A model generated the notes under the pieces. That model was not told the DNA's origin. It ran no database searches and saw only the letters and a list, made by a program, of their open reading frames with translations. DNA of 20,959 bases. It comes from Parvularia atlantis. Its lineage: Eukaryota; Opisthokonta; Rotosphaerida. Position 1 is the first letter of the stretch, and each line of letters starts with the position of its first letter. The translations under genes were made by a program, and so were the position numbers. Positions 1,835 to 12,366 of this stretch are shown here, piece by piece. Where the stretch lies: contig CALSCO010000054.1 in the NCBI GenBank assembly GCA_943704415.1, positions 1 through 20,959 on the forward strand. Direction: 5' to 3'.

Positions 1835-3914
1835 TCATGGCAGCAACATTGTGGGTCGTTTCGTCTGCGGCGCGGCGCGGCGCGGCGCGGTCAGCACGGC
1901 CAGCTTCGGGCGTGCGCGGCGTACAACGCCGTCGTCGTCGCTGTCGACGTCGTACGCCGCCCAGACGCTTTTGCTCACCGTGCTCTGCTCCTTCAGGAAC
2001 TGGTGCTCGATGCGCAGGAAGATCCACATGCACCGCCGCGACACCTCGAGCACCTCCGACACAAACAAGCTGGGGCGCGCGAACGACGCGTCAGGAGGCC
2101 TGCACGGCGAGCGCGCAGCGGCGCGGCCACCCCAGCTCGTGGTGTAGCCGGATGGACGAGAAGCGCATGCTCCATGACAGCCGCAGGAGCAAGTCGAGTG
2201 TGACCGCGACGTAGTAGTACGACGGTCTCTGCGGGCGCGCGTGCATAGCGTGAGCACCGGTAGGCGACACGCACGCGGAACGCCGCACCCTGAACACGAG
2301 ATGGTCGCGCAACAGCGGTCGCCCGGGCGCGGACGTTCGCTGCCCGAGGTCCCAGTCGTACACGATGTCCCAGTAGAACGAGTAGAGCGAGTTGACGACG
2401 GCGCTGAGGAGCCTGCGGAAGTGCCCGCGTCAAGCGCCGCGCTGATGAGCTGCCGGCCGTGCACACCAGCACCACCCGAGCGCGTCGGCGCTGTCCGGAT
2501 ACCGCTGCTGCAGCACCGAGAACAGCACGACCGGGAAGGCAGTCGAGTACTTGAGCGCGTTGAGCAGATGCCGCGGCTGCACGCGCGGGTCAGCCCTCGA
2601 GCGAGCACGACGCAGCGCCTCGCGCACCGCCCGGTCCTCGTCGCGGTACTGGCGCAGGCACTGGAGCAGGCGCCACACGGACGGGAGGCTGCGTCGCCGT
2701 CAGCTTGGTGCACACGCAAGCGACGGCAGCGAACCAGAGGACCAGCGGCGCGGCGATCGACGACGAGCACTGGCGGTGCAGGGCCGGGTGAAACTCAAAG
2801 TCAGGCGTGAAGAGCATGAGGCAGACGGGCGTGGTGAGGTCGGCAAAGACCTGCGCGTCACGCGTGAGCACACGGCGCGTCGACCGGCCAGCGCCGAGGC
2901 CGCACCCGCGCGAACGACGTAAATACGTCGGCCAGGATGATGTCGGCGAAGAAGACGAACGAGAGCGGCGCGGTGACGATGCGCGCGGTCGAGCTGCGCA
3001 AAGCGCCCGGGTGAGCCGTGCGGCGCGCGAGTGAGGCCGGGCCGCACCGCAGGAAGACCATGCGCAGGTCGCCGAAGAAGCGCTCCGAGGGCAGGAGCAG
3101 CAGCAGCACAAAGAGGCCGAAGAGCGTGACGGGGAGGGCCGTCGCGGGCACGAGGCCCGTCGTGACCGTGAACAGGAAGAAGTTGCTGCGGCAGCCGCCG
3201 CGTCAGCAGCGACGGGACCGATTTGGCACACGTGGCGCGCGGACCTCGAGAAGAGCAGCGTCAGCACGGCCGCGAGGAAGAAGACGGCGCGCGGCGTCTG
3301 CGCGGCCTGTGGCGCGTGCGCGTCTCTGTCAGCAGGCCGGCACGCACGTCGGCCGCCACGGGGAAGAAAGCACAGCACCGCGGCCTTGCCGTCGATCCCG
3401 AGCGACGCGTTGGCGTTGAGGCCAAACAGCGCGAAGCCGTGCAGGTTGGCGCCCCAGCACCACACGCCGTACACGACGAGGCCGAGGCCTGCGCGCCACG
3501 TCACGTCACGGCCACGACGACGGCCACGGTCTCGTCCGCACCGCGGTAGTAGATCGGGAAGCGGTCGAGGCGCTCGATCTGCGTCGGCGCGCCGTTGAGC
3601 GCGAGCACGACGAAGGTCTGCGGTGACGCGCACGGGATGAGCCCGCGTCACCCGGCACGCCGCGCGCGCACCACGACGACGCAGGCCAGCGACGCCGCGC
3701 ACAGGAACACCGTCGCCCGCACCAGCTCGGCCTCGTGCCCGCGCCGCCCCGCGCCGGGGCTGGTGCCGCCGCCGGCCGCGACGCCGTTGATGAGCAGCGC
3801 GCCGCCGTCACTCGCCGGCGCCGCGTCGGCCAGCAGCCGCCCGGCGCAGAAGGCGACCGTGACGGCCAGCGGCGCGGCCACAGACAGGCCGAGCGCGACG
3901 ACGAGCAGCGGCAT
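1835..3914 (-). CDS. EXS-domain multipass membrane protein (ERD1/XPR1 family, no SPX)
   Basis: Polytopic membrane protein of the EXS family, which includes yeast ERD1 (Golgi protein and phosphate retrieval) and XPR1/PHO1 phosphate exporters. The exons, 5' to 3', are 3914-3672, 3617-3542, 3488-3379, 3306-3245, 3185-3048, 2993-2906, 2850-2735, 2688-2628, 2576-2467, 2412-2289, 2228-2131 and 2069-1835, giving 486 residues. EXS hallmarks include FADIILADVFTSFAR, LLQCLRQYRD, HLLNALKYSTAFP, LYSFYWDIVYDWDLG and EVLEVSRRCMWIFLRIEH. The first residues already form a membrane segment, so there is no N-terminal SPX domain. This favours an ERD1-like Golgi role over phosphate-regulated export, but substrate is unknown. 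The tail is acidic (DVDSDDDG), then basic. The exon 3/4 and 7/8 borders are the least certain. The start codon lies 29 bp after the NPL4 stop codon. Confidence 0.92.
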
Positions 3915-3943
3915 CGACAAAGTGACTGCCACGCGTTGCTCAC

Positions 3944-4065
3944 TCACATCAACCGCTGCAGCACCGCCTCGATCGACCCGTTGTGCTCGGCCAGCAGCTC
4001 CAGGTTGCGCGCCTCGTTCTCGAAGCCCATCTCGAGCAGCTGCCCAAGCTCCTGTGCGAAGCGCA
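3944..4065 (-). other. UBA domain exon at the NPL4 C-terminus
   Basis: This last exon reads [20 protein letters not shown] and then [19 protein letters not shown] before TGA. It has the UBA signature: the MGF loop, a central LL, and an NG turn before the last helix. It joins exon 16 in phase 1 through an intron at 4127-4066 that begins GTGCGTC and ends CGCAG, so it belongs to the same gene model. The exon has no in-frame start that would make it a separate protein. Confidence 0.88.
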
Positions 4066-6710
4066 CTGCGCGCGGCCGTCGCGGCGTGAGCGAGAGAAGC
4101 GCACAGGAAGACGGACGGACGACGCACCGCGCGCGGGCGGCACGGCGCCTCGAGACGCCGTCGGGGCTGCGGGCGTCGGCGTGCTCTGCGCCTGGCCGAT
4201 CGCGAGCAACGTGCGCCAGCTGTCGGTTTGCGTGGCCGCGGCGAGGCGCTGGGCGTCGCGCGCACGGATGGCGTCGCACAGTAGGGCAAAGTCGCGCTGC
4301 TCGCACAATGAGCACAGGAGTGTCGGGCGAGCGCACGAGCGCGCACCTCCAGGTTGACCACGCCTGTCTTGGCGATTGCCAGCAGCACGTGGAAGTCGCT
4401 CAGCGCCGCGCCGAGGCTGCCGCCCGCCTGCTGGATGTACCTGTGCGACGCGCGGCAGTCAGCGCAAAGCGATTGCGGCGCGCCGGGCGGGCGCACCTGT
4501 ACAGCTGCTCGAGGGTGACGGCCTCCGTCGGCCGGTTCTCGACCGGGAACGACTGCGCGTTGAGGAACGTGGGCTTGGGCTCCTGCGGGCGCGAGCGTTG
4601 GGCGTGAGTTGCCGCTGCTGCCAGACGACGCTCGCAGCGTGCACCTTTGGGAAGCCGTTGTTCACGTTCACGAGCAAGTATTCGACCGGGAACGACGGCT
4701 TGGCCGGCTGTGTCACGTCCGTGCCGTACTCGTTCTGGAACCTGTAGAGCACCTCGGGGATCTGCGTGTGCCGCGCGTCAACATTGCCGCGCACCACTGC
4801 CCGTGAGTGCGTACCACGCGGCTGTCGTCCTTGACCACGCGCATCAGCGCCGGGTCGACCGTGGCCTGCATCATGTCGGCGCGCGTCTGCCGGCGCACGG
4901 CTGAGTGCGACCCGTGCACTCCTCCGCAGGCCGCACGGCACCATCGCCATCGCCTGGTTTGAGACCTGGTACGCCGCCACGCCGATGTTGACGCCCTCGG
5001 TGATCGTCGGGTCGCCTGCACGCGCGCGCGCGCGTCTGAGCGCACTGCACGAAATGGCGCGCATGGGGGCGCACCCGACACCACGACCGTCACAAACTTG
5101 GACCCGAACCGGCCCGTGTTGGAGTACCTGCACGGGTTCGGGTTGTCGAGCTGCTGGTTGGCCGAGAACAGGACCTGCGCGGGCAAACGGGCACTCAGCA
5201 TGTGATGGGCAAACGCGGTGTGCCTGCTGCTCACACCTCGAGCGAAGAGAGAAAGTACGAGTTGGCGTGGCGCTTGACCATCACGCGCCCCGAGCCCGAT
5301 TGGTCGTCGATCAGGTCCGTGAAGATCATGCCGACCTGCATCCGCGTGAGCACGCACGAGCAGACCGCCCGTGCGTGCCCGCACCTTGCGCAGCCCGAGC
5401 ACCTGCGCGATGCCGTGCGCGAGCGCGCGGTCCGGGTCCTCGTCTGCCAGCTCAAGGCCGTCCGGGTGGCCCAGCTGCGGCGGCTCGTAGATGAACGCGA
5501 CGACGGCCTTTATGCCGAGCGGCAGGTCGAGGTGCGGCTCGTAGCGGCCGTACCTGACACCCCGGTGCACGCCGTCAGCGCCTCGCACACACTCACACCA
5601 GCGCCACACGCACAGGTATCCAAAGCGCTGCGTGCCAGTCGAGCGCCAGCCCTGGAGGAAGCGGTCGACGATCTGCGACGTCTCAAACTCGACGTGGTCG
5701 ACGATGCGGAACTCCTGCAGTGTGCCGCGCGCAGCGAGTCAGACTGCCTTGGCGTGCACACGCATGGGGGGCGGCGCGGCCACCTGGCTCTTGAGCACGA
5801 CGGCCGAGGGCATGTCTGTGAGCTTGAGGATCGTCGTGTCCTTCTTGAGCGTCTTGCGCGCCAGATCCTCAACCTCGTCCTGCACGAGCTGCAGCGCCAC
5901 GCCGGTCACGCCCGAGCTACGCTGCTTGTTCTGCTGCTTGCGCAGGAACGCGTGGAACGACATGTGCTTGATGCCTTTCTCCTTGAGGTACCCGGCGTCG
6001 TACGGCTGGCGGGGCAGCGCGCATTGAGCGGGCACGATGCGCGGACACACAGCACCTCGAGCGGCAGCTCTGAGATGCGCCGCATGCCCTCGCGCTCGGG
6101 CGTGCGCGCGATCAGGCCTGACATCTTGTCGAGCTCCTGGTCGACGGGGTCCTGCGTGCGCACGCGCGCCTGAGCGGGCGGAACGGGCGCAACGGGCGGC
6201 GCGCACCTCCTGCAGCTGCGCAGCGCCGTTCGCGGCGGCGGCGGCGGCCCCGGGCCCGCTCGCGACGGCGTCGGCCCACTTGCCCTCATGCGCGTCGGCG
6301 TGGAGCAGGTCGCCGTGCCTGCGTGGCGCCCATGCGCTCGTCAGTGTGCCGGGCGCAGCAGTGGCGTGCGCTGACCTCAGCGGCACCGTGCCAATGGCGT
6401 GCGCTGCGCTGCGCAGCAGGGGCGGCCCCTGCGGCCTGGTGCTGAGCTTGAGCTGGTGCGGGTGCACGCCGAGCTGCGCACACACGCGCGCGTGCGCACG
6501 TAAGCGGCGGCGAGACAGAGATCGCGGCGCAACGTACCTCGGAGGCGGCCTTGGCGTACAGGTCCTCGACCGACTGGGCCGGGTCGACGGCGACCTTGAC
6601 CATGCCCGCGGGTGAGCGCACGCGCAGCAGCTGCCCTCCCCCCCCCGCCGCGCCGTCAGCCGGCACCGCAAGCGAGCGAGGCGGGCAGGCGGCGCGCGCA
6701 CCAAGGCCAT
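3944..6710 (-). CDS. NPL4: NPL4, Cdc48/p97 ubiquitin cofactor, with C-terminal UBA
   Basis: Partner of UFD1 that recruits ubiquitinated proteins to the Cdc48/p97 unfoldase. There are seventeen exons: 6710-6702, 6630-6538, 6473-6376, 6318-6207, 6151-6056, 6005-5784, 5714-5614, 5553-5385, 5335-5237, 5174-5075, 5015-4942, 4886-4815, 4761-4645, 4582-4497, 4440-4347, 4296-4128 and 4065-3944. They encode 610 residues (human 608). The first exon is only ATG GCC TTG. Order of parts: ubiquitin-like fold (about 4-75), zf-NPL4 remnant ending in [19 protein letters not shown], then the MPN-like NPL4 domain with [24 protein letters not shown] and [15 protein letters not shown]. The cysteines normally preceding PLEPYD are absent. 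The final exon encodes a UBA domain (about 575-610) where animals have an NZF finger. It is divergent from the methyltransferase gene. Confidence 0.96.
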
Positions 6711-6779
6711 TTGAACTGCTGACGAGTGCAAAGTGTCATAGTTCTCGAGTACTCCGGAAGCGTCTCGAAGCGTCTTGAG
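6711..6779. promoter_or_regulatory. 69-bp divergent promoter, NPL4 / methyltransferase
   Basis: The start codons of two outward-facing genes are 69 bp apart, so this interval must hold both 5' UTRs and the core promoters unless these extend into coding sequence. It contains CCGGAAG (6754-6760), resembling an ETS core. A 10-bp direct repeat AAGCGTCTYG occurs at 6758-6767 and 6768-6777. No TATA box is visible. Motif roles are inferred. Confidence 0.5.
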
Positions 6780-7850
6780 ATGGCAGGCGCCACGCGTGCG
6801 GCGGCCGTCGTGCTCGCGCTGCTCGCGGCCGTGCTCACGCTCGCGCTGCTGCTGCGGACGACGCGCGGGGCCAGCGGTGTGGTCGATGCGGCCGGCGCGA
6901 GCAGCTCGGGCGGGGTCGCGAAGGGCGGGGACGAGGGGCGGCAGCCCGCTAGCCCCGATGGGCGCACGCGCACGCTCGAGTCGTGGGCGGTCAACTACCG
7001 CGCGCTCACCCCGCCCGCGCGCCCGCCCTACGCCAATCTGCGCGGCAAGCGCTTCGTGCTGACCGCACCGCTGTGGATGGCCGTGCTCAAGCGCGCGACC
7101 GAGGACGACCGCATCGAGGCGGACCCGGTCGACGCCAACGGCGTGGCACTGCCGAATGACGGCGTCTACGCGCCCCTGCCGACGCTGATCGGGCGGTGGC
7201 AGCTCAGCTCGCTGATCGAGCGGTTGGGTGCGCGCACGGCGGTTGAGGTGGGCGTGCGCACGGGCGACTTTTCGCGCGAGATCATGCTGCGTTGGCCGTC
7301 GATGGAGCGGCTGTACCTCGTGGACGAGTGGCGGCACCTGGACAACTACCGCGAGCAGCTGAACGAGGTCGACGCCGAGAAGGAGAAGATGTTTCAGGGC
7401 GTGCAGCAACGGTGCACAGGCAGGCGTGCGGTGCACAGACCGCGAACTCACGCGCGCGCCTTGGCCTCCAGGTACGCCGACAAGGGCAGCAAGGTCCAGT
7501 TCATCCGCAAGGAGCCGACCGAGGCCGCCAAGCACATCCCCGACGACAGCATCGATTTCATCTACTTTGACTACCGCCACGACTACTGCAGCATGTGGAG
7601 CTATCTCGTCGCGTTCTGGCCCAAGATGCGCCGCGGTGGCATCGTCGCGGGGCACGACTACCTCGACGCCGACAGCCCGCTGCTGCAGGAGACGCACCAG
7701 GACTGGTCGGTCTGCCCGAACGGCGACGTCAACAGGGGCGCGGTCAAGGGCGCGGTGGACGACTTTGTACGGGCGATGGGCGGGTCGGCGGGGCGTCTGC
7801 GCGTGACGGACGACGCGTGGACGACGTTCTACTTCCGGCGGATCTTGTAG
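6780..7850 (+). CDS. Membrane-anchored methyltransferase-like protein (Methyltransf_24-like)
   Basis: Predicted type II membrane protein of 336 residues. An N-terminal hydrophobic helix (about 7-23, [19 protein letters not shown]) is followed by a Gly/Ser-rich linker and a class I SAM-dependent methyltransferase-like domain. Motif I is [15 protein letters not shown] (about residue 152 on). LYLVDEW follows as the second strand, [12 protein letters not shown] as the motif II region and [12 protein letters not shown] as motif III. The AGHDY ending is typical of small-molecule or sugar methyltransferases of the Methyltransf_24 type. One intron (7412-7471) is a multiple of three with no stop; removing it gives [13 protein letters not shown]. 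This is the only recognised gene here with a single intron. The substrate is unknown; a Golgi-lumen sugar or glycan target is a guess from topology. It is convergent with CSN4, 50 bp away. Confidence 0.85.
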
Positions 7851-11133: not shown

Positions 11134-11940
11134 TCACCACCCGCCAAAGACGTTGGAGCGGAACGAGAATATGCTCGAGTCGTACAGGTGCTCGTCCTTC
11201 GTGCCCGGCGGGACGAGCTGGCGCGCCACGACCGAGATGAGCGGCTTGCGGTCGCGCTGCTGCTGCTGCTGCTGCTGTTGTTGTTGCTGGTGCTGCTGTG
11301 CTTGTTGTTGCAGCTGTTGTTGCTGCTGCGCCTCGCTCACCTGCTGCAGCCGCGACGTGGCCGTCGTGGTCGCGCTGGGCGGGAGGGGTGCGGCGGCGGC
11401 GGCGGCGGCGGCAGCGGCGAGGTTGCGGCTCCGACCGTGCGAGACGAGGCCCGTGCCCGGCGGCGACGTCTGCCCGACCGGTAATGTCCCCGCAGCACTA
11501 GGCGTTTGCAGCGAGCTCGGGGCCGAGCTGCCGCGGCGCAGCTGGAGCGACAGCAGCGACTTGGCCGGGCGGACGATGGGCTTGACCTCCTCGCGCCGGA
11601 AGAAGATGTCGGCCGAGGACGCGGCAGCCTCACCCACGGCCGCCGCGGCCAGGGCGATGCGTGAGGGCCGTGTTGCGGCGTCGGGCGCGCGTGGGAAGCG
11701 CGACTTGAGCAGCGGGTGCTGTCGCGCGGCGCCCTGGGGCTGCGGCTGCTGCGGCTGGGCGGGGGCGGGAGCGGCGGCTGGCCGGGCCGCGGGCTTGACG
11801 GGGGAAATTGCGGGCGACGTGGTGATCGTCGGGGCGGGTGCAAGGGTGGTCTCGGCACGCGAGGGCGAAGGCACGATGGCCTGGAGCGACACGGCGCGGG
11901 GCAGCTGACCGTCGGCGGGGAGCGGGGCGCGCCCGGGTGT

Positions 11941-12033
<93 letters not shown>

Positions 12034-12366
12034 GGCGGCGGCGGCGGCGGCGTGCGGGGCCACCGGGGCCGCGGCCGCGTCGAGCAGCCCGGTGGCGCGC
12101 GGGGTGATGGCCGAGGTCGACGCGACCTTGGCGACGGCGCGGCCGCTGGCGCCGAGGCCGAGCGGGGCGTGGTGGTGGTCGGAGCTGGAGGGTGCGCGCT
12201 GCAGGCTGGCGCTCGGGGACGAGGCGAGGGACGAGGCCTCGCTGGCCGACTCGCCGCCGATGAAGAACATGCTCGTGGTCGTGTCCGTGTCGCGCACGCG
12301 ATCGCGCTCGAACCAGAGCTGGGCGAGGTCGAGGGCGAGCGCGGCGGTGGTGGTGGTGGCCTGCAT
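11134..12366 (-). CDS. Intronless low-complexity protein with poly-Ala and poly-Gln tracts
   Basis: Uninterrupted 410-codon ORF that I do not recognise. The N-terminus (MQATTTTAALALDLAQLWFE) has one predicted helix. Ser-rich sequence follows, then 36 consecutive alanines (residues 106-141). A Pro/Ala-rich region, short conserved-looking pieces (REEVKPIVRPAKSLLSLQL), a second Ala run, and a 24-residue Gln-rich tract come next. The tail, LYDSSIFSFRSNVFGGW, is of normal complexity and most likely functional. The composition resembles disordered transcription or RNA regulators, but no domain is identifiable. It lacks introns, unlike every recognised gene here. Long chance ORFs are common in this GC-rich sequence, so coding status rests on its filling an otherwise empty interval and on its structured ends. 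The start codon is the first ATG of the frame. Confidence 0.55.
11257..11328 (-). repeat. Poly-Gln (CAG/CAA) tract of 24 codons
   Basis: Twenty-four codons near the C-terminus of the intronless ORF are nearly all CAG or CAA, with single Leu, Ala and His interruptions. The mixture of CAG and CAA suggests an old, partly stabilised glutamine tract. It lies in the frame that gives Gln, whereas the larger triplet array at 11944-12051 is in the Ala frame. Confidence 0.85.
11944..12051 (-). repeat. Trinucleotide array, 36 alanine codons including (GCA)29
   Basis: On the minus strand the array reads six GCC codons, then 29 uninterrupted GCA codons, then one GCG, all in the alanine frame of the intronless ORF. 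In RNA terms this is a pure CAG repeat of about 29 units. The absence of interruptions implies a young or actively changing tract, unlike the interrupted Gln tract of the same ORF. Confidence 0.95.

Follow-up and report, generated by a model that had tools for sequence, protein, structure and literature searches.

In this genome a full-length NPL4 appears to have gained a ubiquilin/NBR1-type UBA domain at its C terminus, attached through a short linker rich in Ala and Pro, and the added domain most likely serves as a ubiquitin-binding arm in cis. NPL4 is the Cdc48/p97 cofactor that feeds ubiquitin-tagged proteins to the unfolding machine. The window, meaning the whole stretch of DNA that was analyzed, is the entire contig C9 (20,959 bases) of a draft genome of 16.25 Mb in 616 contigs, and the features of the gene are collected in Table 1. 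At the level of sequence the fusion described in the original prediction is confirmed, whereas its interpretation has partial support and needs broadening to a predicted NPL4 that is without zinc fingers and carries a UBA domain.

Table 1. Features of the NPL4 gene, in positions of the window.
Feature	Position	Strand	Description
NPL4 gene	3944..6710	minus	17 exons, 610 aa, open over 1833 nt including the stop codon
NPL4 exons 1-6	6710-6702, 6630-6538, 6473-6376, 6318-6207, 6151-6056, 6005-5784	minus	Splice model
NPL4 exons 7-12	5714-5614, 5553-5385, 5335-5237, 5174-5075, 5015-4942, 4886-4815	minus	Splice model
NPL4 exons 13-17	4761-4645, 4582-4497, 4440-4347, 4296-4128, 4065-3944	minus	Splice model
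UN_NPL4 UBX-like domain	6303..6710	minus	Exons 1-3 and start of exon 4; N-terminal
zf-NPL4 region without zinc ligands	5784..6151	minus	Exons 5 and 6; alignment A1
Ala/Pro/Thr-rich linker, ~22 residues	4128..4193	minus	End of exon 16; between NPL4 C-terminal domain and UBA
Intron 16	4066..4127	minus	62 nt, GTGCGT...GCGCAG, phase 1
Exon 17	3944..4065	minus	Predicted ubiquilin/NBR1-type UBA domain, residues about 571-610, and stop codon

The splice model contains 16 introns, all of them GT-AG and 49-71 nt in length, and the 610-residue reading frame runs through the joined exons unbroken. The boundaries given in the original prediction (end of exon 16 at 4128, intron at 4127-4066, exon 17 at 4065-3944 including the stop codon, 610 residues in total) were found to be right, and its description of the gene as a full-length NPL4 is borne out by Pfam matches to the UN_NPL4 domain (PF11543; residues 3-72, 38.4 bits against a cut-off of 21.9, E 1.8e-9), the zf-NPL4 region (101.9 bits, E 4.3e-29) and the NPL4 core (PF05021; residues 240-547, 349.7 bits, E 2e-104, family cut-off passed). 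The best PDB matches of the protein are NPL4 chains, namely 6chs_A (2.2e-99, the best overall), 11ve_G (9.6e-96) and 8dar_G (3.4e-88), which we take to be the Chaetomium, human and yeast proteins, respectively. In alignment A1, which sets the protein beside Chaetomium and human NPL4, it is 42% identical to the Chaetomium row and 38% identical to the human row. A genome-wide search at E<=0.001 gave NPL4 matches confined to C9, where the gene described here is the single NPL4 found in the genome.

Gene packing around NPL4 is tight by eye, with its start and an opposite-strand open frame lying approximately 70 nt apart (window 6710-6780), and the next minus-strand frame seen by eye begins with an ATG at 3914, 29 nt past the NPL4 stop codon. 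This stop codon sits inside ATGTGAGT, a splice-donor-like string (window 3942-3949, minus strand), and a further exon may follow. Elsewhere in the window, a short repeat at 300-570 is located just upstream of a frame with a GET3/ArsA-like P-loop, recognized by eye, and a long triplet run at 11900-12070, which reads as poly-Q, poly-A or poly-S depending on the minus-strand frame, lies within large open frames.

Exon 17 carries the codon signature of the gene to which it is joined. The GC content at codon positions 1, 2 and 3 is 0.72, 0.30 and 0.93 in the UBA frame, compared with 0.68, 0.43 and 0.94 in the remaining coding sequence, and the third-position GC of the other two frames is 0.72 and 0.30. 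The mean codon log-likelihood is likewise highest in the UBA frame (-3.60 versus -4.94 and -5.18), and this signature together with the intact UBA pattern points to selection acting on the UBA frame. The donor and acceptor of intron 16 score 6.9 and 5.7 bits, compared with ranges of 3.7-11.7 and 3.2-10.0 for the other 15 introns, which are training scores in that the splice matrices were built from these same introns. Nine GT-AG joins with introns of 40-94 nt link the NPL4 and UBA frames, and the proposed join is the top one among the best six of the nine. The claim that exon 17 is attached in frame by a normal intron is thus upheld in the sequence, by a 62-nt GT-AG intron with ordinary splice scores, and the two exons would be expected to be spliced together in the cell. 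In the UBA open frame no ATG precedes the domain, so that a UBA gene of its own would require a further exon inside NPL4. The Ala/Pro/Thr-rich linker between the two parts of the protein is probably flexible. The NPL4 frame is also open across intron 16 to a stop codon at 3949-3951 (ORF 3949..4458, minus strand), and retention of the intron would therefore give an arginine-rich tail without the UBA domain.

A phmmer search of PDB sequences with 44 residues of the tail matched ubiquilin-2, -4, and -1 at 3.1e-5 to 3.2e-5. Twelve of the 14 matches at E<=1 are named ubiquilin, Dsk2, NBR1 or p62, and the other two (RIKEN cDNA, unnamed product) have uninformative names but cover the same stretch. 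None of the 14 is a chain of NPL4. The tail is identical to the ubiquilin-2 UBA domain at 19 of 41 residues, and the MGF loop, which is a ubiquitin contact of UBA domains, is kept (LEMGFENE in the tail, NAMGFLNR in ubiquilin-2). With an 11-row ubiquilin/NBR1-type profile, in which five rows came from the PDB matches and six from the same genome and some were picked because the tail matched them, the tail scores 41.4 bits and the best of 20,000 shuffles 13.9 (11.3 in an earlier shuffle set). Because of this selection, a second profile was made from 16 independently found UBA domains, all of them detected only with Pfam's model and none with the tail (a genome-wide PF00627 search supplied 20 loci, of which 16 were used, leaving out the ubiquilin-like L009 as well as L021, L022, and L024), and here the tail scores 18.3 bits, with 11.3 bits as the top score among 20,000 shuffles. 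Both of these profiles, and a third consisting of four of the 16 rows, place the tail at the head of 20,001 sequences (20,000 shuffles plus the tail), and the tail is also first among the 328 six-frame peptides of the window with the ubiquilin/NBR1-type profile (38.8 bits, the next 5.0).

On the tail alone PF00627 gives 13.9 bits and UBA_NBR1_C 20.2 bits (E 5.7e-4), below their respective cut-offs of 22.4 and 27. On the whole protein UBA_NBR1_C is the sole UBA match in Pfam (15.7 bits, E 0.014), and the tail is not among the 27 matches of the genome-wide PF00627 search at E<=1. The HMMER-type searches support UBA homology through the PDB matches and the custom profiles, whereas the Pfam scores stay below gathering. 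The tail had been called a textbook UBA domain; the assignment stands above chance, but the adjective is too strong for a domain that falls below the Pfam cut-offs. AlphaFold returned one long helix, and not a three-helix UBA bundle, as the best model of the lone 39-residue peptide, with a mean pLDDT of 96.3. For a short single sequence this is a weak test, yet the model lends the UBA assignment no support. The other four models have mean pLDDT values of 82.7, 78.9, 78.3, and 75.5. The nearest UBA domains of the same genome belong to an NBR1-like gene (L026, G000:C454; 44%, 1.7e-4) and a ubiquilin-like gene (L027, G000:C385; 38%, 0.002), both named by eye, which are possible donors of the domain. 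By homology, the C-terminal tail is supported as a predicted UBA-like domain of the ubiquilin/NBR1 type.

In the predicted protein the ligands of both ring-docking zinc fingers, ZF1 and ZF2, are gone, a point absent from the original prediction. Alignment A1 contains 11 columns with Cys or His in both reference rows, eight of which we assign to the two fingers (C, H, C, C in each). None of these eight is kept in surroundings that are conserved, and two of the other three columns are kept. There are zero cysteines in residues 101-215, and the protein is several residues shorter at both finger sites. The last 43 residues are also without cysteine, indicating that a four-cysteine NZF is absent as well. 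A hidden zinc-finger exon was considered and is unlikely, since the sites of ZF1 and ZF2 are covered by exons 5 and 6, and translation continued into intron 5, where there are cysteine codons, leaves the frame of the conserved PLEPYDAGYL. Finger loss does not bar a protein from the NPL4 family, as the accessible text of PMC1949818 describes loss of the central zinc cluster in NPL4 of the plant lineage, and that of PMC7403338 loss of both Zn fingers in Leishmania NPL4. For the human complex, the part of PMC7785736 that is available describes contacts of ZF1 and ZF2 with the D1 ring and N domains of p97, calls the see-saw motion of NPL4 arising from these contacts essential for unfolding, and reports that cupric ions from the disulfiram derivative CuET act on the two fingers of human NPL4.

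The original prediction contrasted animal NPL4, ending in an NZF, with yeast NPL4, which has none, and this is stated in the accessible text of PMC9377798 and PMC7785736, where human NPL4 has the NZF and yeast or fungal NPL4 is without it. Its wording that the UBA domain is present in place of the NZF is not supported as it stands. The marker genes lean fungal and published fungal NPL4 has no NZF, and the UBA domain is therefore more likely to have been added to an NPL4 already without an NZF, at the end where animals carry one, than swapped for it. The EF-1A of the genome carries the insertion GWKKLDKKGAEVKG, and an insertion of this kind marks opisthokonts. Two groups of PDB chains cover the insertion region with 282-284 and 269-271 residues, which we take to be mammalian and yeast chains and archaeal chains, respectively. 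On contig C181 all 15 LYS2-like matches follow the order of the profile, between positions 294 and 1341 of its 1390, each of them below the cut-off. The LYS2 family is also matched in 12 of 14 control prokaryotes, which makes the fungal label only a leaning. The EF-1A insertion and the LYS2-like exons lean toward an early or unusual fungus and are not proof of one. An algal origin is not favored, with no chlorophyll a/b-binding match in the genome at E<=0.001.

The genome search also located partners of the complex, with one exon match to UFD1 on C118 and a Cdc48-type N domain on C21. Seven UBX matches are present in the genome, six of them above the cut-off alone or with their neighbors, and contig C128 has a UBA and a UBX match on one strand, with the UBA match as the upstream one in a UBXN1-like order, so that UBA help in trans may still exist. 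In the mechanism that we propose, the UBA domain would hold the ubiquitin chain of the substrate near the NPL4 tower, and the held chain would help the tower, the unfolding groove and the UT3 domain of UFD1 to engage the substrate. Such an arm in cis would parallel the NZF in animals, with which it may be a convergent solution, and the UBA domain of UBXN7 in trans. With the ligands of both D1-ring-docking fingers lost, contact with the ring would be left to the UBX-like domain of NPL4, what remains of its core and UFD1, and, speculatively, the added affinity for ubiquitin may compensate for a weaker hold on the ring.

Support for an effect of such a module comes from the human system. As described in the accessible part of PMC9377798, human NPL4 from which the NZF has been deleted loses most of its in vitro binding to K48 chains, and disassembly becomes less efficient; the NZF accounts for most of the detectable ubiquitin binding of the protein and raises efficiency without being essential, and the UBA domain of UBXN7 is needed for efficient stimulation and helps substrate engagement. 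The same text describes the human NZF as dispensable for ERAD and the UBA domains of FAF1 and FAF2 as dispensable in vitro, and the available text of PMC12965308 describes the FAF2 UBA domain as nearly dispensable, from which it follows that the UBA arm may matter little.

The tail could be a genuine UBA domain that binds a UBL, either the UBX-like domain of NPL4 itself or the one carried by a shuttle of the Rad23 or ubiquilin kind, in which case NPL4 would recruit or autoregulate shuttle factors and not substrate. UBL-UBA contacts of the Dsk2/ubiquilin type occur, the tail is closest to the ubiquilin/NBR1 UBA domains, and a ubiquilin-like gene, named by eye, is present in the same genome. We nevertheless regard this as unlikely, as no examined sequence feature prefers UBL over ubiquitin and the MGF loop that contacts ubiquitin is retained. 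The codon signature shared by exon 17 and the gene body and the intact UBA pattern make it very unlikely that the exon is an addition with little or no effect on fitness, or is present in only some transcripts through retention of intron 16, even though the NPL4 frame is open through this intron, GC-rich introns would seldom contain stop codons, and the architecture was not seen elsewhere in the viral and prokaryotic collections.

That exon 17 belongs to another gene, or that the contig is misassembled at the junction, is highly improbable. The assembly is a draft in 616 contigs, the fusion is known from genomic sequence alone, and the ATG of the next gene, placed by eye, follows on the same strand. 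However, the UBA frame is without an ATG upstream of the domain and its own stop codon precedes the next ATG, and exons 16 and 17 are only 62 nt apart with splice signals like those of the other 15 introns. We favor the UBA domain being part of NPL4 and acting as its ubiquitin-binding arm.

When compared with known systems, the predicted protein shares with animal NPL4 the UBX-like domain, the MPN core and a C-terminal ubiquitin-binding module placed after a linker. In animals this module is the NZF, whereas here it would be a cysteine-free UBA domain, and the protein has none of the ZF1 and ZF2 ligands seen in the human row. Fungal NPL4 of Saccharomyces and Chaetomium is alike in lacking the NZF, according to the available text of PMC7785736 and PMC9377798, and 6chs_A is the best PDB match, but the Chaetomium row keeps ZF1 and ZF2 and the protein described here does not. 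The loss of zinc is shared with plant NPL4, in which the central cluster is lost, and with Leishmania NPL4, in which both fingers are lost; the latter is also without the UBX-like domain that is present here, and the accessible text of these sources mentions no UBA domain on either protein. The UBA-UBX cofactors UBXN7, FAF1, and FAF2 likewise bring a UBA domain to the p97 complex (PMC12965308, accessible text), but they are separate proteins with an N-terminal UBA and a C-terminal UBX domain, whereas here the UBA domain is the C terminus of NPL4. The C-terminal UBA domains of ubiquilin and NBR1 belong to the same sequence subfamily as the tail, although the host protein here is NPL4, with no other ubiquilin or NBR1 domain found in it by Pfam.

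No NPL4 was confirmed at E<=1e-3 in viral contigs, with either the protein or A1 as the query, or in prokaryotic genome contigs with A1, from 17, 34, and 19 pattern-matching stretches, respectively, and with collections that are viral and prokaryotic this absence says little about eukaryotes. The original prediction knew of no description of the architecture. In this it agrees with the accessible portions of the open-access literature, where no NPL4 with a UBA domain was found, but zinc-finger loss is already in print for plants and Leishmania.

A broader reading, which is plausible but which we hold with more doubt than confidence, is that a lineage, probably fungal, rebuilt NPL4 without any zinc module (ZF1, ZF2, and NZF of the animal protein all absent) and with a ubiquilin/NBR1-type UBA domain joined to it as a new arm that captures ubiquitin in cis. 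The resulting Cdc48 unfoldase would dock NPL4 without zinc fingers and use its own UBA domain instead of a separate UBA cofactor. An otherwise conserved NPL4 without ZF1 and ZF2 is a natural test of whether zinc-finger docking is needed for unfolding. The UBA domain in cis in turn amounts to a natural version of a UFD1-NPL4 with added ubiquitin affinity, and would let one ask whether the extra affinity that it may provide lowers the number of ubiquitins that a substrate needs.
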